Assembly: GCF_008033235.1 (NCBI RefSeq)
Contig: NZ_CP042432.1
Span: 1,984,001 to 2,048,000 of the forward strand
DNA length: 64,000 nt
Origin: Anseongella ginsenosidimutans
Lineage (GTDB): Bacteria; Bacteroidota; Bacteroidia; Sphingobacteriales; Sphingobacteriaceae
Direction of reading: 5' to 3'
Made by a program: the position numbers and the translations under genes. Position 1 is the stretch's first letter, and each line of letters starts with the position of its first letter. The notes under the pieces are model-generated. The model made no database searches, was not told the origin of the DNA, and was given only the letters and a program-made list of their open reading frames with translations. Of this stretch, positions 52,863-58,646 are shown in pieces.

Positions 52863-53198
52863 ATGAGACAATTTATGACCACTACCGTGGAACAGAGAAA
52901 GGATTTCACGGGCGCCTTTTCTACTCATCCTATGGAAACAGCATGGGCCGGCGAAGCTATTTTTTTTATTACCGTTGAAAAAGTAAGCGGCAATGCCGCC
53001 TTGCTGCATGCCCGGGTGCAGCTGTCCGTGGATGGGGTAAACTGGCTGGACGAGGGCACGGCGTTTTCACCTTTAAATAAACCCGGGCAGTATTTTGTAA
53101 GGGTAAGCCATTTCGGGGGATGGCTGCGGTTAAATGTTGACATTGAAGGTGAGGACAGCGTTTTTAACCTCACTATTCACCTGGTACTTAAAGAATAA
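52863..53198 (+). CDS. unrecognised small beta-rich protein
   Basis: A 111-residue protein without a signal peptide. Alternating hydrophobic pattern (AIFFITVEKVSGNAALLHAR, QYFVRVSHFGGWLRLNVDIE, VFNLTIHLVLKE) suggests a single small beta-sandwich. I do not recognise a family. It is tightly packed between the preceding unknown gene and the symporter (eight and five bases), so all three are likely co-expressed and may act on the imported sugar. Confidence 0.65.
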   Translation: MRQFMTTTVEQRKDFTGAFSTHPMETAWAGEAIFFITVEKVSGNAALLHARVQLSVDGVNWLDEGTAFSPLNKPGQYFVRVSHFGGWLRLNVDIEGEDSVFNLTIHLVLKE

Positions 53199-53203
53199 CG
53201 AAT

Positions 53204-54661
53204 ATGCAGCTTTTGGATTATTGTGTGCTGGCCGGTTATTTCCTGGTCATATTTCTGATCGGCAGTTTCTTTAGTACAAGTCAAAAGTCCCTGAAAGACT
53301 ATTTCCTGGGCAGCAGGAATATCCCCTGGTGGGCGGTGTCCTTTTCAGGCATTGCTACTGTGATCAGCGCTATTTCTTACATAGGGGCTGTGGGCTTGGG
53401 CTTTAGCAGCGATTTTGGCTTCCTTCAATACAGGCTGGCCATACCAATTGCCATCCTGGTAATCGTTGTCATTATTCTCCCCTTCTTTTACAACCTGCAG
53501 CTTTATTCAATCTATGAATATCTTGAAAAGCGGTTCAATTTGACCATTCGCCTGCTCGGAAGTGGAATATTTATCCTTTTCAAATGCTGCTACCTGGCGC
53601 TTGCGATTTTTGCGCCTGCTATTGTGATTGAAGTGCTTACAGGCATCAACCTGATCTGGATCGTACTTATTACCGGGGCCGTAACCACGCTTTATACCCT
53701 GCTTGGCGGAATTAAATCCGTGATCTGGACGGACGCTCTTCAGCTGGTCATTCTGCTCGGGGGCATTTTTCTGGTGATTGGGATCAGCGTTGAAGGGGTG
53801 GACGGCGGGCTTTCAGGCGTCCTGGACACAGGAAAGGAATTTGACAAGTTCCGTTACTTACGTCCTTCTTTGAGCCTTACGGAAACCTATACCATCTGGA
53901 ACGGATTGATCGGCGGTGCATTCTTAATGATCTCCCAGTTTGGTACGGATCAAACAGAAATGCAGCGGTTCCTGACCACCCGTTCTTTGAAGAAAGCGAA
54001 TATAGCCCTGGCTTCTTCCTTGCTGATAGCCGCCCTGATGGGCTTTTTGATCTTCTTTGAAGGGGCTGCTATCTTTGCGTTTTACGAGCAGCGGGGCCAG
54101 GCCGGCATCGAGCCCAACCAGGTGCTTGTAAAATTTATTGTAGAAGAACTGCCAACTGGTGTGAAGGGCTTCTTGCTGGCCGGTATTCTTGCGGCCGCGA
54201 TGTCCACGATCAGCTCGGTACTGAATTCATTGACCACGGTTTCCCTGTCAGATTTCTATAATCGTTTTAAAAAGCGCGAAGCCAGTGTTTCGCTGGCCCG
54301 CATGGTGACCCTGGGCTTCGGCCTTTTGGCTACTTTCCTGGCTTGTTTTGGAAACTATTTCGGAAATATCCTTGAAACAGCCATGACGGTAATTAATTTT
54401 TTCGGCGGAGGCCTGGTTGGTTTGTTTCTCCTGGGTATGCTGAGCAGGAAAGCTACTCCGGGCGGCGCCATGGCAGGTTTTATCGCGGGTTTTGTGGTGA
54501 TTTTGCCGGTAGCAGCGTTCACTGACGTGGCGTACATGTGGTACAGCGCCATTACCGCCATATGCACCTATGTGGTGGGTTTACTCGTAAGCCGGCTATC
54601 CGGCACAAAGCCCCTGCCCGGCCAGGAAGCGCTGGTTTACTCACGACATAAAAAAAAATAA
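53204..54661 (+). CDS. sodium:solute symporter (SSS family)
   Basis: Inner-membrane transporter of 485 residues with about 13 membrane helices. Family landmarks are DYFLGSRNIPWWAVSFSGIATVISAISYIGAVG near the N-terminus, TLYTLLGGIKSVIWTDALQ, the segment FGTDQTEMQRFLTTRS and AAAMSTISSVLNSLTTVSLSDFY. Unlike the two other symporters of the locus it has no Kelch domain, which hints that it moves a different sugar or that the mutarotase is not needed. Gene order puts it between two unknown genes and the second FCD regulator. Confidence 0.93.
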   Translation: MQLLDYCVLAGYFLVIFLIGSFFSTSQKSLKDYFLGSRNIPWWAVSFSGIATVISAISYIGAVGLGFSSDFGFLQYRLAIPIAILVIVVIILPFFYNLQLYSIYEYLEKRFNLTIRLLGSGIFILFKCCYLALAIFAPAIVIEVLTGINLIWIVLITGAVTTLYTLLGGIKSVIWTDALQLVILLGGIFLVIGISVEGVDGGLSGVLDTGKEFDKFRYLRPSLSLTETYTIWNGLIGGAFLMISQFGTDQTEMQRFLTTRSLKKANIALASSLLIAALMGFLIFFEGAAIFAFYEQRGQAGIEPNQVLVKFIVEELPTGVKGFLLAGILAAAMSTISSVLNSLTTVSLSDFYNRFKKREASVSLARMVTLGFGLLATFLACFGNYFGNILETAMTVINFFGGGLVGLFLLGMLSRKATPGGAMAGFIAGFVVILPVAAFTDVAYMWYSAITAICTYVVGLLVSRLSGTKPLPGQEALVYSRHKKK

Positions 54662-54694
54662 CCATATTTGGAACATATTAAAAGCACCGAGAGA

Positions 54695-55396
54695 ATGCCC
54701 AATGATGATTTGAGAAAGGATTTGAAACGCGTTACGACCAAAACAATGGCAGACGTGGTGGAACTTCATTTAAGGGAATACCTGAAAAAAAAATCATTCA
54801 AGCCCGGAGATGCATTGCCAAAGGAAACCGAACTTGCGGAAGCCTTAGGGGTTAGCCGTAATGTGGTACGGGAAGCATTGAGCAGGCTGCGGATGCTCGG
54901 AATGGTCGAATCCAGGAAAAAACGCGGGATGATCCTTGCCAATCCGGATATCCTGGGAGCCTTTGAGCGTGTCCTGGACCCCTTGATTTTGGATGAAGTA
55001 ACCCTCCGGAATGTGTTTGAATTACGGTTGGTGCTGGAAATGGGACTGGCCGATATCCTTTATATACGTAAAACCCAGAAAGATATCGAAGAGCTGGAGG
55101 AGATCGTAAAAAGGGAAGTCAACAAGAAGCAAAAACCTTTCAGAGTAAAATACGAAATTGCTTTTCACGGGAAGTTGTACGAAATGACAGGAAATGATAC
55201 TTTTCTCCGTTTTCAGAGCATGTTACTCCCCGTTTTTGAATACGTGGTGGACGAAGAGATCAAGACCAGCGGTAAAGCCGAGGTGGGAAAGGTCACGCAT
55301 CATGACCTGGTAGAGATACTCAAGGCCGGCACGCCGGATGAGTTCCGTGCGGGAATGAGGGAACACCTGAAACCGCATTTTGACCGCTTGAAGTGA
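54695..55396 (+). CDS. GntR-family transcriptional regulator, FadR/NanR subfamily (second copy)
   Basis: A 233-residue paralogue of the regulator at 10.8 kb. The winged helix part is nearly the same (ELAEALGVSRNVVREALSRLRMLGMVE), including every residue of the recognition helix. The FCD domain keeps ELRLVLEMGLADILYIRK and the His-bearing helices IAFHGKLYEMTGN and HHDLVEIL but differs more towards the C-terminus, so the two may read the same operator while answering different ligands. A TTG nine codons upstream is open, but the ATG at 54695 matches the paralogue start. It follows the symporter by 33 bases and ends unit B. Confidence 0.93.
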   Translation: MPNDDLRKDLKRVTTKTMADVVELHLREYLKKKSFKPGDALPKETELAEALGVSRNVVREALSRLRMLGMVESRKKRGMILANPDILGAFERVLDPLILDEVTLRNVFELRLVLEMGLADILYIRKTQKDIEELEEIVKREVNKKQKPFRVKYEIAFHGKLYEMTGNDTFLRFQSMLLPVFEYVVDEEIKTSGKAEVGKVTHHDLVEILKAGTPDEFRAGMREHLKPHFDRLK

Positions 55397-55399
55397 ACG

Positions 55400-55420
55400 G
55401 CCACCACCGAAGTAGGTGGC
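55400..55420 (+). terminator. hairpin after the second regulator gene
   Basis: GCCACC (55400-55405) and GGTGGC (55415-55420) form a 6-bp stem with a nine-base loop starting three bases after the regulator stop codon. No T tract follows, so it may mark an mRNA end rather than an intrinsic terminator. Confidence 0.3.
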
Positions 55421-55438
55421 TTCACAGTCCCGGCCATT

Positions 55439-55626
55439 ACCGGCGCGCGGACGCGGATTTTGCGTTGTCCGGTCTCGCTCAGGCTGATTTTCGGGGCACC
55501 ACACTTTCGCGTGCGCGAAAATCAAAAGTCGCTTGCCGCGGACAACAGAATGTTGATCTTTGTGGCTTTGCCGCAAAGATCGCCTTAAGGGAATCCGGGC
55601 AATCAAACCAGCACGCCGCGCGCGGT
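55439..55626. repeat. intergenic inverted-repeat element or structured RNA
   Basis: This stretch has no convincing gene but is full of paired arms. The outer stem is ACCGGCGCGCGG (55439-55450) with CCGCGCGCGGT (55616-55626), one bulge. Inside, GTTGTCCG (55464-55471) pairs with CGGACAAC (55539-55546), and nested in it TGATTTTCG (55485-55493) with CGAAAATCA (55516-55524). A separate hairpin has a 12-bp stem, GATCTTTGTGGC (55555-55566) with GCCGCAAAGATC (55570-55581), and a three-T loop. Together they fold as a closed multi-branch structure. It may be a non-autonomous mobile repeat or an RNA. Confidence 0.55.
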
Positions 55627-55653
55627 CCCGATGTGCGAATTTTTCCGGATTAA

Positions 55654-55707
55654 TTTGGATGTGGCGGCGAAACTTTCTATTTTTGTTAATATGTAGTTCA
55701 TAACTAC
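55654..55707 (+). promoter_or_regulatory. promoter and predicted operator of sulfatase unit C
   Basis: TTTG at 55654-55657, a 20-base spacer and TATTTTTG at 55678-55685 fit the Bacteroidota consensus exactly. Five bases on is the locus box ATGTAGTTCAT (55691-55701). It overlaps a perfect 15-bp palindrome, GTAGTT-CAT-AACTAC (55693-55707), so the operator here could be read in two registers. The sulfatase start is about 50 bases further. Confidence 0.7.
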
Positions 55708-55752
55708 TTGACTATCGCTTCAGCTCCTGAACCGAAGCGCCTGAACAAAAAT

Positions 55753-57210
55753 ATGAATAGAGAGAAATACGAGGTTCAACCGCCGTTGTATCTTATATTG
55801 TTTTTTATGCTCGTGGCCGCCGGATGCGGCCCTAAGCGGGAAAAAAACAACAGCGTTTCCGAAAACACGAAGATGAATGTGCTGTTCATTGCCGTTGACG
55901 ACCTTAACGACTGGATACAGCTGCTGGACAGCAATGCACCGATTAAAACGCCTAACCTGGAGCGGCTTGCCAGCAAGGGAATGCTGTTTACGCAGGCTTA
56001 TTGCCCCTCGCCTTCCTGCAATCCTTCACGGACGGCTGTTCTGACAGGAAAAATGCCTTCTTCGTCGGGCGTTTATAACAATGCCGCCGATTGGAAAAGC
56101 GCACTTCCTGATGCGCTTACCCTTCCCCGTTATTTCATGGAAAACGGCTACCGGACCGAAGGAGCCGGAAAGATATTTCACCATCACATGAACGGCGCGT
56201 TTCATGATACGCTTGCTTTCGATGAATTCCGGCAAATGCCCTGGCCTCCTGACGCGCCTATGCCCGGGCAGAAACTGAACGGGTTGAAATGGTACGGTAC
56301 ATCCAATACCGATTGGGGGATCTGGCCCGCGGAAGACAGCATGCATGTAGATGAACGTACGGTCGGGTACATTACACAGAAACTGGCGGGAACGTTCGAA
56401 GAGCCTTTCTTCCTTGCGGCCGGCATCTTTCGTCCTCATATGCCTTTTTTTGCTCCTTCTGAATACTTTGAACAATACCCTTCCGATAAGGTACAGATGC
56501 CTGAAGTGCAAGAAAATGACCTGGATGATATCCCCTCTGGCGGCAGGGTGTTATGGGAAGAAACACGCTGGTTCTTCGACGGGATGATGAAGGCCGAAAA
56601 GCAGGAAAGAGGCGCCTGGAAAGAAGCCGTCAGGGCCTATCAGGCTTCGGCTACTTTTGCAGATGCGCAGGTAGGAAAGATCCTTGACGCACTTGAAAAG
56701 AGTGCTTATGCAGATAATACGATTATCGTACTCTGGTCTGACCATGGTTACCATCTTGGGGAGAAACGGCACTGGGAAAAGTTTGCCTTATGGGAGAAGA
56801 CCACCCACGTGCCGTTTATTATCGTTGCTCCCGGTATTACCCGGCCCGGGTCACGCTGCAGTCAACCGGTAAGCCTCGCGTCAATTTACCCGACGCTGGT
56901 GGAACTATGCGGGTTGCCGCCGAAGCATGGATTGGACGCCCCCAGCCTGGTGCCTTTGCTTAAAGATCCCGGAACAGCATGGAAATACCCCGCGCTGATG
57001 ACGTACGGAAAGGGAAACCACGCGATACGCAGCGGGCAATGGCGGTATATCCGGTACGCGGACGGAACCGAGGAGCTATACGACCGTGAAAGCGATCCGC
57101 AAGAATGGCATAATATTGCAGACAACCCTGCTCATGCAGCGTTGAAGAAGGAATTAGCGCAATGGCTGCCCGCGCAGGAAGCGGCGCCCTGGCCCGATAT
57201 GAAAAAATGA
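55753..57210 (+). CDS. iduronate-2-sulfatase-like sulfatase (S1 family), lipoprotein
   Basis: Sulfatase of 485 residues with a lipobox (LVAAGC, Cys25), so probably membrane-anchored. The formylglycine motif is CNPSR at Cys89 in PSCNPSRTAVLTG; metal ligands lie in FIAVDDLNDW and LWSDHGYHLGEKRHWEKF. The DLNDW/HGYHLGE wording is that of iduronate-2-sulfatase-type enzymes, which hydrolyse 2-O-sulfate on uronates, although relatives act on other sugars. An upstream in-frame start (55708) would lie in the leader. Its last codons overlap the start of the next sulfatase (ATGA). Confidence 0.92.
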   Translation: MNREKYEVQPPLYLILFFMLVAAGCGPKREKNNSVSENTKMNVLFIAVDDLNDWIQLLDSNAPIKTPNLERLASKGMLFTQAYCPSPSCNPSRTAVLTGKMPSSSGVYNNAADWKSALPDALTLPRYFMENGYRTEGAGKIFHHHMNGAFHDTLAFDEFRQMPWPPDAPMPGQKLNGLKWYGTSNTDWGIWPAEDSMHVDERTVGYITQKLAGTFEEPFFLAAGIFRPHMPFFAPSEYFEQYPSDKVQMPEVQENDLDDIPSGGRVLWEETRWFFDGMMKAEKQERGAWKEAVRAYQASATFADAQVGKILDALEKSAYADNTIIVLWSDHGYHLGEKRHWEKFALWEKTTHVPFIIVAPGITRPGSRCSQPVSLASIYPTLVELCGLPPKHGLDAPSLVPLLKDPGTAWKYPALMTYGKGNHAIRSGQWRYIRYADGTEELYDRESDPQEWHNIADNPAHAALKKELAQWLPAQEAAPWPDMKK

Positions 57211-58646
57211 AACTACTTGTACTAAGCGGAGTATTTGTTTTACTGGCATTTACATCCTGCGGACAGGAGCAACCGCCCGCCCGCCCGAATGTCTTATTTA
57301 TTGCCGTTGACGATCTGCGCGTGCAGCTTGGCTGTTACGGCGACCCTGTTGCGGTAACCCCGAATATAAACCGGCTTGCCGCTAAAGGGATGGTGTTTAA
57401 CCGGGCCTATTGCCAGCAGGCAGTCTGTAATCCGTCAAGGGCTTCCTTAATGACCGGAAGGCGTCCGAATACCACCAGGGTGTGGAACCTCAGCACACAT
57501 TTCCGCGAAGCGCTTCCGCAGGTAGTTACCCTGCCGCAGTACTTTAAGCAGAATGGGTACCATACCCGCGCGATAGGAAAGATCTATCATGACCCTGCCT
57601 GGGCGAAAGACTCCGTCTCCTGGTCGGCGCCGGAAATTCTGGCGGTGACCGGAACAAAAGGAAAATATACGCTGGATTCCAACCTGAATAAAAAGGGGTC
57701 CTGGAAAGCCGGTGCTACCGAGCGGGCCAATGTGGAGGACGAGGCCTATATTGATGGCAAAGTAAGCCAGGCTGCCGTTGAGCTGCTTTCGGAAATAAAG
57801 GACGAACCTTTTTTCCTGGCTGTGGGTTTCCGGAGGCCCCACCTTCCCTTTAGCGCGCCTGAACCGTACTGGGAATTATATGATCCGGCCGCCCTGCCTC
57901 TGCCGAAATTCAGGCAGGCGCCGGCAAACGCCCCTGAACTTGCCCTGCATCATTCAGACGAACTCCGGGGTTACCGGGATATCCCGGATGAAGGTCCTCT
58001 CCCCGAAGAAAAAGTACGGGAGTTAATACATGGATACTATGCCGCTACCAGCTATATCGATGCACAGATAGGGAATGTAATCCGTGAACTGGAAAGATTA
58101 GGCCTTAGGGAAAATACCATTATTGTACTATGGAGTGATCACGGATTTCATCTTGGAGAACATGGCCTTTGGAGCAAAACAACAAATTTTGAACTGGATA
58201 CGCGGGTTCCCCTCATCATCTCCGCTCCCGGGCAGGAAGCGACAGGCGTCCGTTCGGACGCTTTGGTTGAACTGGTTGACCTTTATCCCACGCTGGCGGA
58301 ACTGGCGGGCCTCACACTTCCGGCAGGCCTGGAAGGTACCAGTATGAAACCCTTGCTTGCCGACCCTGACCAGCCCTGGAAAACGGCAGCTTTCAGCCAG
58401 TTTCCCCGTCCCTGGAGATATAAAAAACAGCCGGCGATAATGGGCTATTCCCTCCGGACAGCGGATTATCGCTATACCGAATGGCAAGACTTTGAAACAG
58501 GCGAGGTGGAGGCGCGGGAATTATATGATCATCGTAAGGATCCGCTGGAAACGGAGAATATAGCCGGTAAGAACGAACAAGCGAAAAATATAGAACTTTT
58601 AAGCCAGATGCTGAAAGAAGGTTGGCAGGGGCCGTACCCGAAGTAA
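57207..58646 (+). CDS. iduronate-2-sulfatase-like sulfatase (S1 family), lipoprotein
   Basis: Second sulfatase of unit C, 479 residues, overlapping the first by four bases (ATGA), so translation is probably coupled. The lipobox is LAFTSC (Cys18). The formylglycine motif CNPSR begins at Cys74 in AVCNPSRASLMTG; metal ligands are in FIAVDDLRVQLG and LWSDHGFHLGEHGLWSK. It is a paralogue of its neighbour but clearly diverged, so the pair may remove sulfate from two positions or two sugars of the same glycan. About 30 bases after its stop the next promoter begins. Confidence 0.92.
   Translation: MKLLVLSGVFVLLAFTSCGQEQPPARPNVLFIAVDDLRVQLGCYGDPVAVTPNINRLAAKGMVFNRAYCQQAVCNPSRASLMTGRRPNTTRVWNLSTHFREALPQVVTLPQYFKQNGYHTRAIGKIYHDPAWAKDSVSWSAPEILAVTGTKGKYTLDSNLNKKGSWKAGATERANVEDEAYIDGKVSQAAVELLSEIKDEPFFLAVGFRRPHLPFSAPEPYWELYDPAALPLPKFRQAPANAPELALHHSDELRGYRDIPDEGPLPEEKVRELIHGYYAATSYIDAQIGNVIRELERLGLRENTIIVLWSDHGFHLGEHGLWSKTTNFELDTRVPLIISAPGQEATGVRSDALVELVDLYPTLAELAGLTLPAGLEGTSMKPLLADPDQPWKTAAFSQFPRPWRYKKQPAIMGYSLRTADYRYTEWQDFETGEVEARELYDHRKDPLETENIAGKNEQAKNIELLSQMLKEGWQGPYPK

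Follow-up and report, generated by a model that had tools for sequence, protein, structure and literature searches.

Structure of the repeat locus behind a GntR-type regulator gene

The window analyzed here is a stretch of 64,000 nucleotides from Anseongella ginsenosidimutans, in which a block of inverted repeats (55439-55626) follows a gene for a GntR/FCD regulator on the plus strand (ORF 54668-55396, stop codon 55394-55396, with Pfam matches of 65 bits to GntR and 57 bits to FCD). Further downstream and outside the element is a sulfatase-like gene, also on the plus strand (55708-57210), assigned as an ORF only. The inverted repeats are real, and the block represents one member locus of a family of dispersed palindromic repeats. 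The stems listed in the earlier note were recovered, with an outer stem that joins ACCGGCGCGCGG (55439-55450) to CCGCGCGCGGT (55616-55626) through 11 pairs and one bulged G, and a two-tier hairpin in which GTTGTCCG (55464-55471) faces CGGACAAC (55539-55546) in the outer tier and TGATTTTCG (55485-55493) faces CGAAAATCA (55516-55524) in the inner one, all arms being given on the plus strand. The further hairpin GATCTTTGTGGC-TTT-GCCGCAAAGATC (55555-55581), described as a perfect 12-bp stem, is present but not perfect, having 11 Watson-Crick pairs and one G-T (92%). Recovery of these inverted repeats required a seed length of 6, as the repeat finder returned nothing at its default settings. The block is also GC-richer than its surroundings, as had been stated (G+C 0.585 versus 0.484 and 0.478 in the 500 nucleotides on each side), and the segment 55430-55640 folds better than dinucleotide shuffles both as DNA (z -3.37, with 1 of 200 shuffles equally good) and as RNA (z -4.15, 0 of 200).

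The covariance model R1 identifies 55448-55567 on the plus strand as a full repeat unit of type A (81.2 bits, E 3.9e-18), a score to be read with the fact that this copy is one of the 24 units from which R1 was built; blastn alone gives 20 other places. The outer and inner tiers of the hairpin are the stems P1 and P2 of this unit, which also carries the two sides of a conserved internal motif, TCGCTC at 55475-55480 (within TCGCTCAGGC, 55475-55484) and TCGCTT at 55529-55534, where most copies have TCGCTC. A second unit, inverted and decayed, lies behind the first on the minus strand (55512-55619; R1 match of 25.3 bits, E 6e-4) and has blastn matches elsewhere in the genome; it is reduced to the inner hairpin, which is the 12-bp hairpin above, and one arm, GCCTTAAGGGAATCCGGGCAATCAAA. 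Because the window locus thus consists of a full unit and an inverted second unit, the outer stem and the separate 12-bp hairpin represent the join of the two.

The stems covary between copies and enclose a paired motif

Each unit reads P1, GG(A/T)CTCGCTCAGGC, P2 with its loop, ACATCGCTCGCTG and P1 again, where P1 is the outer stem and varies in sequence, P2 is the inner stem, and the internal motif between them is conserved, with TCGCTCAGGC and TCGCTCGCTG on its respective arms. Two types of P2 occur, TGATTTTCGGG... (type A) and GATTCTTGCGG... (type B). Mean P1 identity is 0.48-0.59 within every class of P2 identity, making the outer stem the variable part, although to call P1 wholly unique to each locus proved too strong, as a loosely shared consensus persists around a variable middle. 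The 24 units taken from blastn places aligned cleanly with MAFFT, and in this alignment 25 of the 29 pairs show double-sided changes, with a covariation of 0.492 against 0.095-0.109 when the partners are slid. A larger alignment of 49 rows, 47 from A. ginsenosidimutans and two from a congener, gave double changes in 29 of 29 pairs and a covariation of 0.711 against at most 0.137, values that are biased towards the structure because the rows were fitted to the model. RNAalifold, to which no structure was supplied, recovered both stems and in addition a central G-C and C-G pair inside the facing TCGCTC motifs, so that covariation at paired positions, one of the outcomes proposed to identify the element, is found in all three analyses. 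In the paired module, T-C mismatches lie on either side of two Watson-Crick pairs. Both central pairs are G-C and C-G in 45 of the 49 rows; the other four have A-T with C-G, G-C with T-A, a T-G and a gap, one row each. The two arms both carry CGCT in 41 rows, and the whole of TCGCTC in 29.

If a transcribed RNA were under selection, an excess of G-U over A-C would be expected among the imperfect pairs. No such excess was seen on the transcribed strand, where the 43 strong rows contain 945 Watson-Crick, 20 G-T, 23 A-C and 27 other cells. Nine of the 23 A-C cells fall at one P1 position, three of these nine coming from tandem copies, and by helix the 49 rows give 15 G-T versus 6 A-C in P2 and 8 G-T versus 23 A-C in the inner part of P1. 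Given this near equality, the covariation alone does not make the element an RNA. A search of Rfam gave no match at E ≤1 in the window at 53000-57500, and none on the element in 10 further loci.

Copies are scattered through one genome and rare outside it

The 4.32-Mb genome holds about 50 model matches. Searching it with 55400-55660 by blastn gave 21 matches including the query itself, most spanning one half of the query, whereas R1 gave 49 at E ≤0.01 (best 150 of 1176 candidates scored) and the model R2 gave 51 (best 150 of 842), both counts including a few places matched on both strands. The many scattered copies anticipated for a mobile repeat are thus present. Among 101 genomes of the family, only A. 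ginsenosidimutans and one congener (G001, three matches) gave matches, the other 99 sampled genomes having no model match. Across 300 genomes of the order R2 matched only its own genome, with the best 12 candidates per genome scored, so weak copies elsewhere in the order may be missed. The motif pattern occurred in only this one of 395 sampled genomes of the phylum (14 matches); viral contigs gave 0 matches. With one genome per species, the pattern gave four matches outside the species, in one stretch shared by two Thioclava species and in two Nitrospira metagenome-assembled genomes (MAGs). The Thioclava matches were rejected as copies of the element, since the two are alike along the whole stretch, presumably a TolC-type gene, and score at best 17.8 bits with R1. 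At two places in the Anseongella genome (about 3381500-3382100 and 554700-555500) partial extra copies adjoin full units, consisting of repeat arms, some with half a motif, as in composite REP clusters.

Copies lie behind genes in the sense orientation

None of the 49 copies is inside a called gene, and 26 of them lie between convergent genes. They are mostly found 6-126 nucleotides past a stop codon and oriented as the upstream gene; within 130 nucleotides, 29 copies have a gene end in the sense orientation only, four in the antisense only, three in both and 13 in neither (binomial p 1e-5). Restricting the count to the 39 copies that score 65 bits or more gives the same pattern (26, 3, 2 and 8, respectively), and several convergent gene pairs have a copy for each gene. 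Gene ends were taken from ORF calling made for this analysis, with one correction by hand (at 892125). We considered whether replication sets the orientation and rejected this, as, of the copies scoring 45 bits or more and directed against the fork, 14 are sense-only and none is antisense-only (one both, one neither), so orientation tracks the gene and not the fork. The replication arms were derived from parS-like sites at 962 kb and a change of GC skew near 3.15 Mb; the sites themselves are two palindromes, TGTTCCACGTGGAACA (962429-962444 and 962961-962976), that mark the likely origin region.

The upstream genes are functionally unrelated. Of 19 scanned, 17 exceed a Pfam cut-off, among them genes for PhoU, an outer-membrane efflux protein, GntR, homoserine dehydrogenase and glutamate synthase; from their Pfam matches we would read others as a MiaA-type transferase, a LysRS-type synthetase and a RecN-type ATPase. 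Since the family tracks the 3' end of the upstream gene, here that of the GntR/FCD regulator, and these genes are unrelated elsewhere, the influence on sulfatase expression proposed in the earlier note is unsupported, and the window copy belongs behind the GntR gene. At about 1918000 the upstream gene is separated from the repeat by a near-perfect, long hairpin, GACCTTGGGGTATTCGC...GCGAATACCCCAAGGTC, and an ORF that by reading resembles an IS3-type transposase (4185860-4186675) is found 1.6 kb from the copy at 4188307.

Most comparable sites in the congener are empty

The element is absent from G001 at 11 of 12 comparable sites, a site counting as comparable if its two flanks could be aligned and its copy scored 45 bits or more; the comparison covered 1.11 of about 3.1 million G001 bases. 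These sites are 192848/193114, 743464, 1103895, 1581545, 1835318, 1847643-1848518, 1918284, 1964452/1964810, 2078305, 3381831, 4117023 and 4219020; we omitted 1925189 (27.9 bits, with abutting flanks in G001), 1506389 (right flank 3 kb off) and sites with one flank. The copies have therefore either been gained recently in A. ginsenosidimutans or lost in G001, and with a single congener loss stays an alternative to gain. The one of these sites that is occupied in both species, 743464, carries copies of opposite orientation with different P1 stems. At the empty sites G001 has at most 182 nucleotides between the aligned flanks, compared with about 190 to 1204 in A. ginsenosidimutans. Clean single insertions are not seen, because the extra sequence often exceeds the element and includes A+T-rich tandem repeats, and the junctions, with any target-site duplication, are unreadable because intergenic flanks have diverged too far between the species. 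Short tandem repeats of this kind (AAACCTTGAACC or AAACTTTAAAC) adjoin copies at several loci (L072, L078, L079 and L087), and at the first two of these they account for much of the length by which the intergenic region exceeds that of G001. We also considered, and rejected, insertion of the core into pre-existing terminator hairpins, as no match was seen between the P1 stems and the hairpins at empty G001 sites.

Comparison with known palindromic repeats

Miniature inverted-repeat transposable elements (MITEs) have a target-site duplication and terminal inverted repeats that are conserved and have counterparts in an autonomous element. In the present family the outer stem is the variable part. 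Integron attC sites have conserved end boxes and stand in cassette arrays; the copies here are dispersed and form no array. A REP-associated Y1 transposase (RAYT) is defining for the GTAG families only. Neither tag is enriched at the foot of the stem among the 43 copies scoring 45 bits or more, with GTAG at the 5' end in three and at the 3' end in one, and CGTC in two and four, respectively. No Y1 transposase (Y1_Tnp, PF01797) was found in A. ginsenosidimutans or G001, although the control search found matches in five of 14 genomes, including E. coli. The suggestion of a REP-type element was accordingly right in kind, but the REP tags and the Y1 transposase are absent. With REP elements (GTAG and CGTC families, BIMEs), as described in PMC3733652, the repeat shares many dispersed intergenic copies of a short palindrome, mostly downstream of genes, between convergent or co-directional genes and sometimes in inverted pairs; it differs in length (about 100-125 nucleotides, compared with 20-40 bp in the abstract of that paper) and in having its conserved motif within the stem and not at one end. 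ERIC and similar repeats, as described in PMC2267715, are likewise dispersed intergenic sequences of roughly 100-130 bp with one long hairpin, and by that description the internal motif and the stems covarying between copies set the present repeat apart. The SPRITE repeat of Streptococcus pneumoniae, as described in PMC3049150, is similarly a hairpin that is enriched between convergent genes and directly after gene ends, but it has a long U-rich tract that is missing here. The repeat thus behaves like REP, ERIC and SPRITE and lacks the REP tags, the transposase and the SPRITE tract, and it looks like a new REP/ERIC-like family of interspersed palindromic repeats. Neither it nor the Nitrospira palindrome treated below is described in the open-access literature searched.

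Proposed origin and retention of the repeat

We consider that the element is probably a lineage-specific, non-autonomous palindromic repeat, REP/ERIC-like in behavior, that would be retained as a hairpin in 3'-UTRs; the dispersal, the common hairpin with its paired motif, the covarying stems, the intergenic sense placement and the absences from the congener at most comparable sites speak for it. The hairpin, as single-stranded DNA, would be the unit recognized during spread, through a putative enzyme acting in trans. Copies would survive best behind genes in the sense orientation because transcription there would give the mRNA a long hairpin at its 3' end, and this might slow 3' decay or read-through and leave promoters unharmed. 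Counting against this explanation, 13 of the 49 copies are further than 130 nucleotides from any called gene end, the absence of Y1_Tnp leaves no candidate transposase, the site occupied in both species has copies of opposite orientation, and G-T does not exceed A-C.

The earlier note had also allowed for an RNA, and gene-sense placement is a better argument for an effect at the RNA level than covariation; the equality of G-T and A-C lends the RNA reading no support. That the copies form a structured RNA family in the strict sense, with a protein-binding motif in the 3'-UTR and retention through a selected function and not through spread, seems doubtful. This would fit the sense placement (29 versus 4), the covarying stems, the conservation of TCGCTC on both sides and two compensated central pairs (L096:3981 and L073), but the upstream genes have no common function, G-T is not above A-C, orthologous congener genes lack the element at 11 of 12 sites and Rfam has no match in the regions searched. 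That the repeat is mobile DNA only, with the host unaffected, orientation arising from the mode of insertion (at gene ends, for instance, into non-template DNA that is single-stranded) and arm complementarity from template switching, we judge unlikely. Mismatches that are symmetric between the strands, tandem copies with one common P1 (L066, L098 and, in G001, L059/L061) and half units beside full ones, as at the window locus, would agree with it, but template switching leaves the conservation of the internal motif unexplained. Intrinsic terminators made alike by convergence, despite the position just past stop codons and the 26 copies between convergent genes, are very improbable, as the T-tract is missing (in all 43 copies scoring 45 bits or more, the longest T run within the outermost 45 nucleotides is at most 4) and sequence conservation is located inside the hairpin. 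The family adds to the bacterial palindromic repeats one with about 50 copies in a single genome, a strong and readable record of covariation, a precisely defined motif inside the stem and sites that are empty in the sister species, and it makes testable both the spread of tag-less palindromes without a RAYT and their retention behind genes for an effect at the mRNA end.

A palindrome with the same paired motif in Nitrospira

The Nitrospira pattern match that was tested sits in a dispersed palindrome with at least 41 matches in one MAG, and the match in the second MAG aligns with the first. Facing TCGCTCAG and TCGCTCGCTGCGG lie between its outer and inner stems, so that, as in Anseongella, the same motif stands on both arms at the same structural place. 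Since the match was found by a motif search, the sharing of letters is by selection; its position at that place in a dispersed palindrome was not selected for. The central C-G pair is replaced by T-A on both sides in four of 25 copies, which look like one sub-type and so perhaps reflect one event. Unlike the Anseongella repeat, the palindrome has an outer stem conserved between copies and no clear orientation bias, and R1 gave no match at E ≤1 to two Nitrospira loci. Y1 transposase genes are present in that Nitrospira genome, with no copy of the palindrome flanking the four tested.

The likeness of the motifs may reflect homology, convergence or chance; if not a coincidence, it would point to a common recognizing protein. 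It is conceivable, though improbable, that the paired TCGCTC/TCGCTC module is the recognition site of one putative DNA- or RNA-binding enzyme, whose action would have spread hairpins in Nitrospira and, independently, in a genus of Bacteroidota; both would then belong to a palindromic mobile class without RAYT tags. The Nitrospira palindrome is abundant and has conserved ends, AGCAGGCTGTTGAAAAAG, in 19 of 20 loci (among L062, L065, L102-L109 and L172-L191), and some Nitrospira gene frames seem to terminate inside it.
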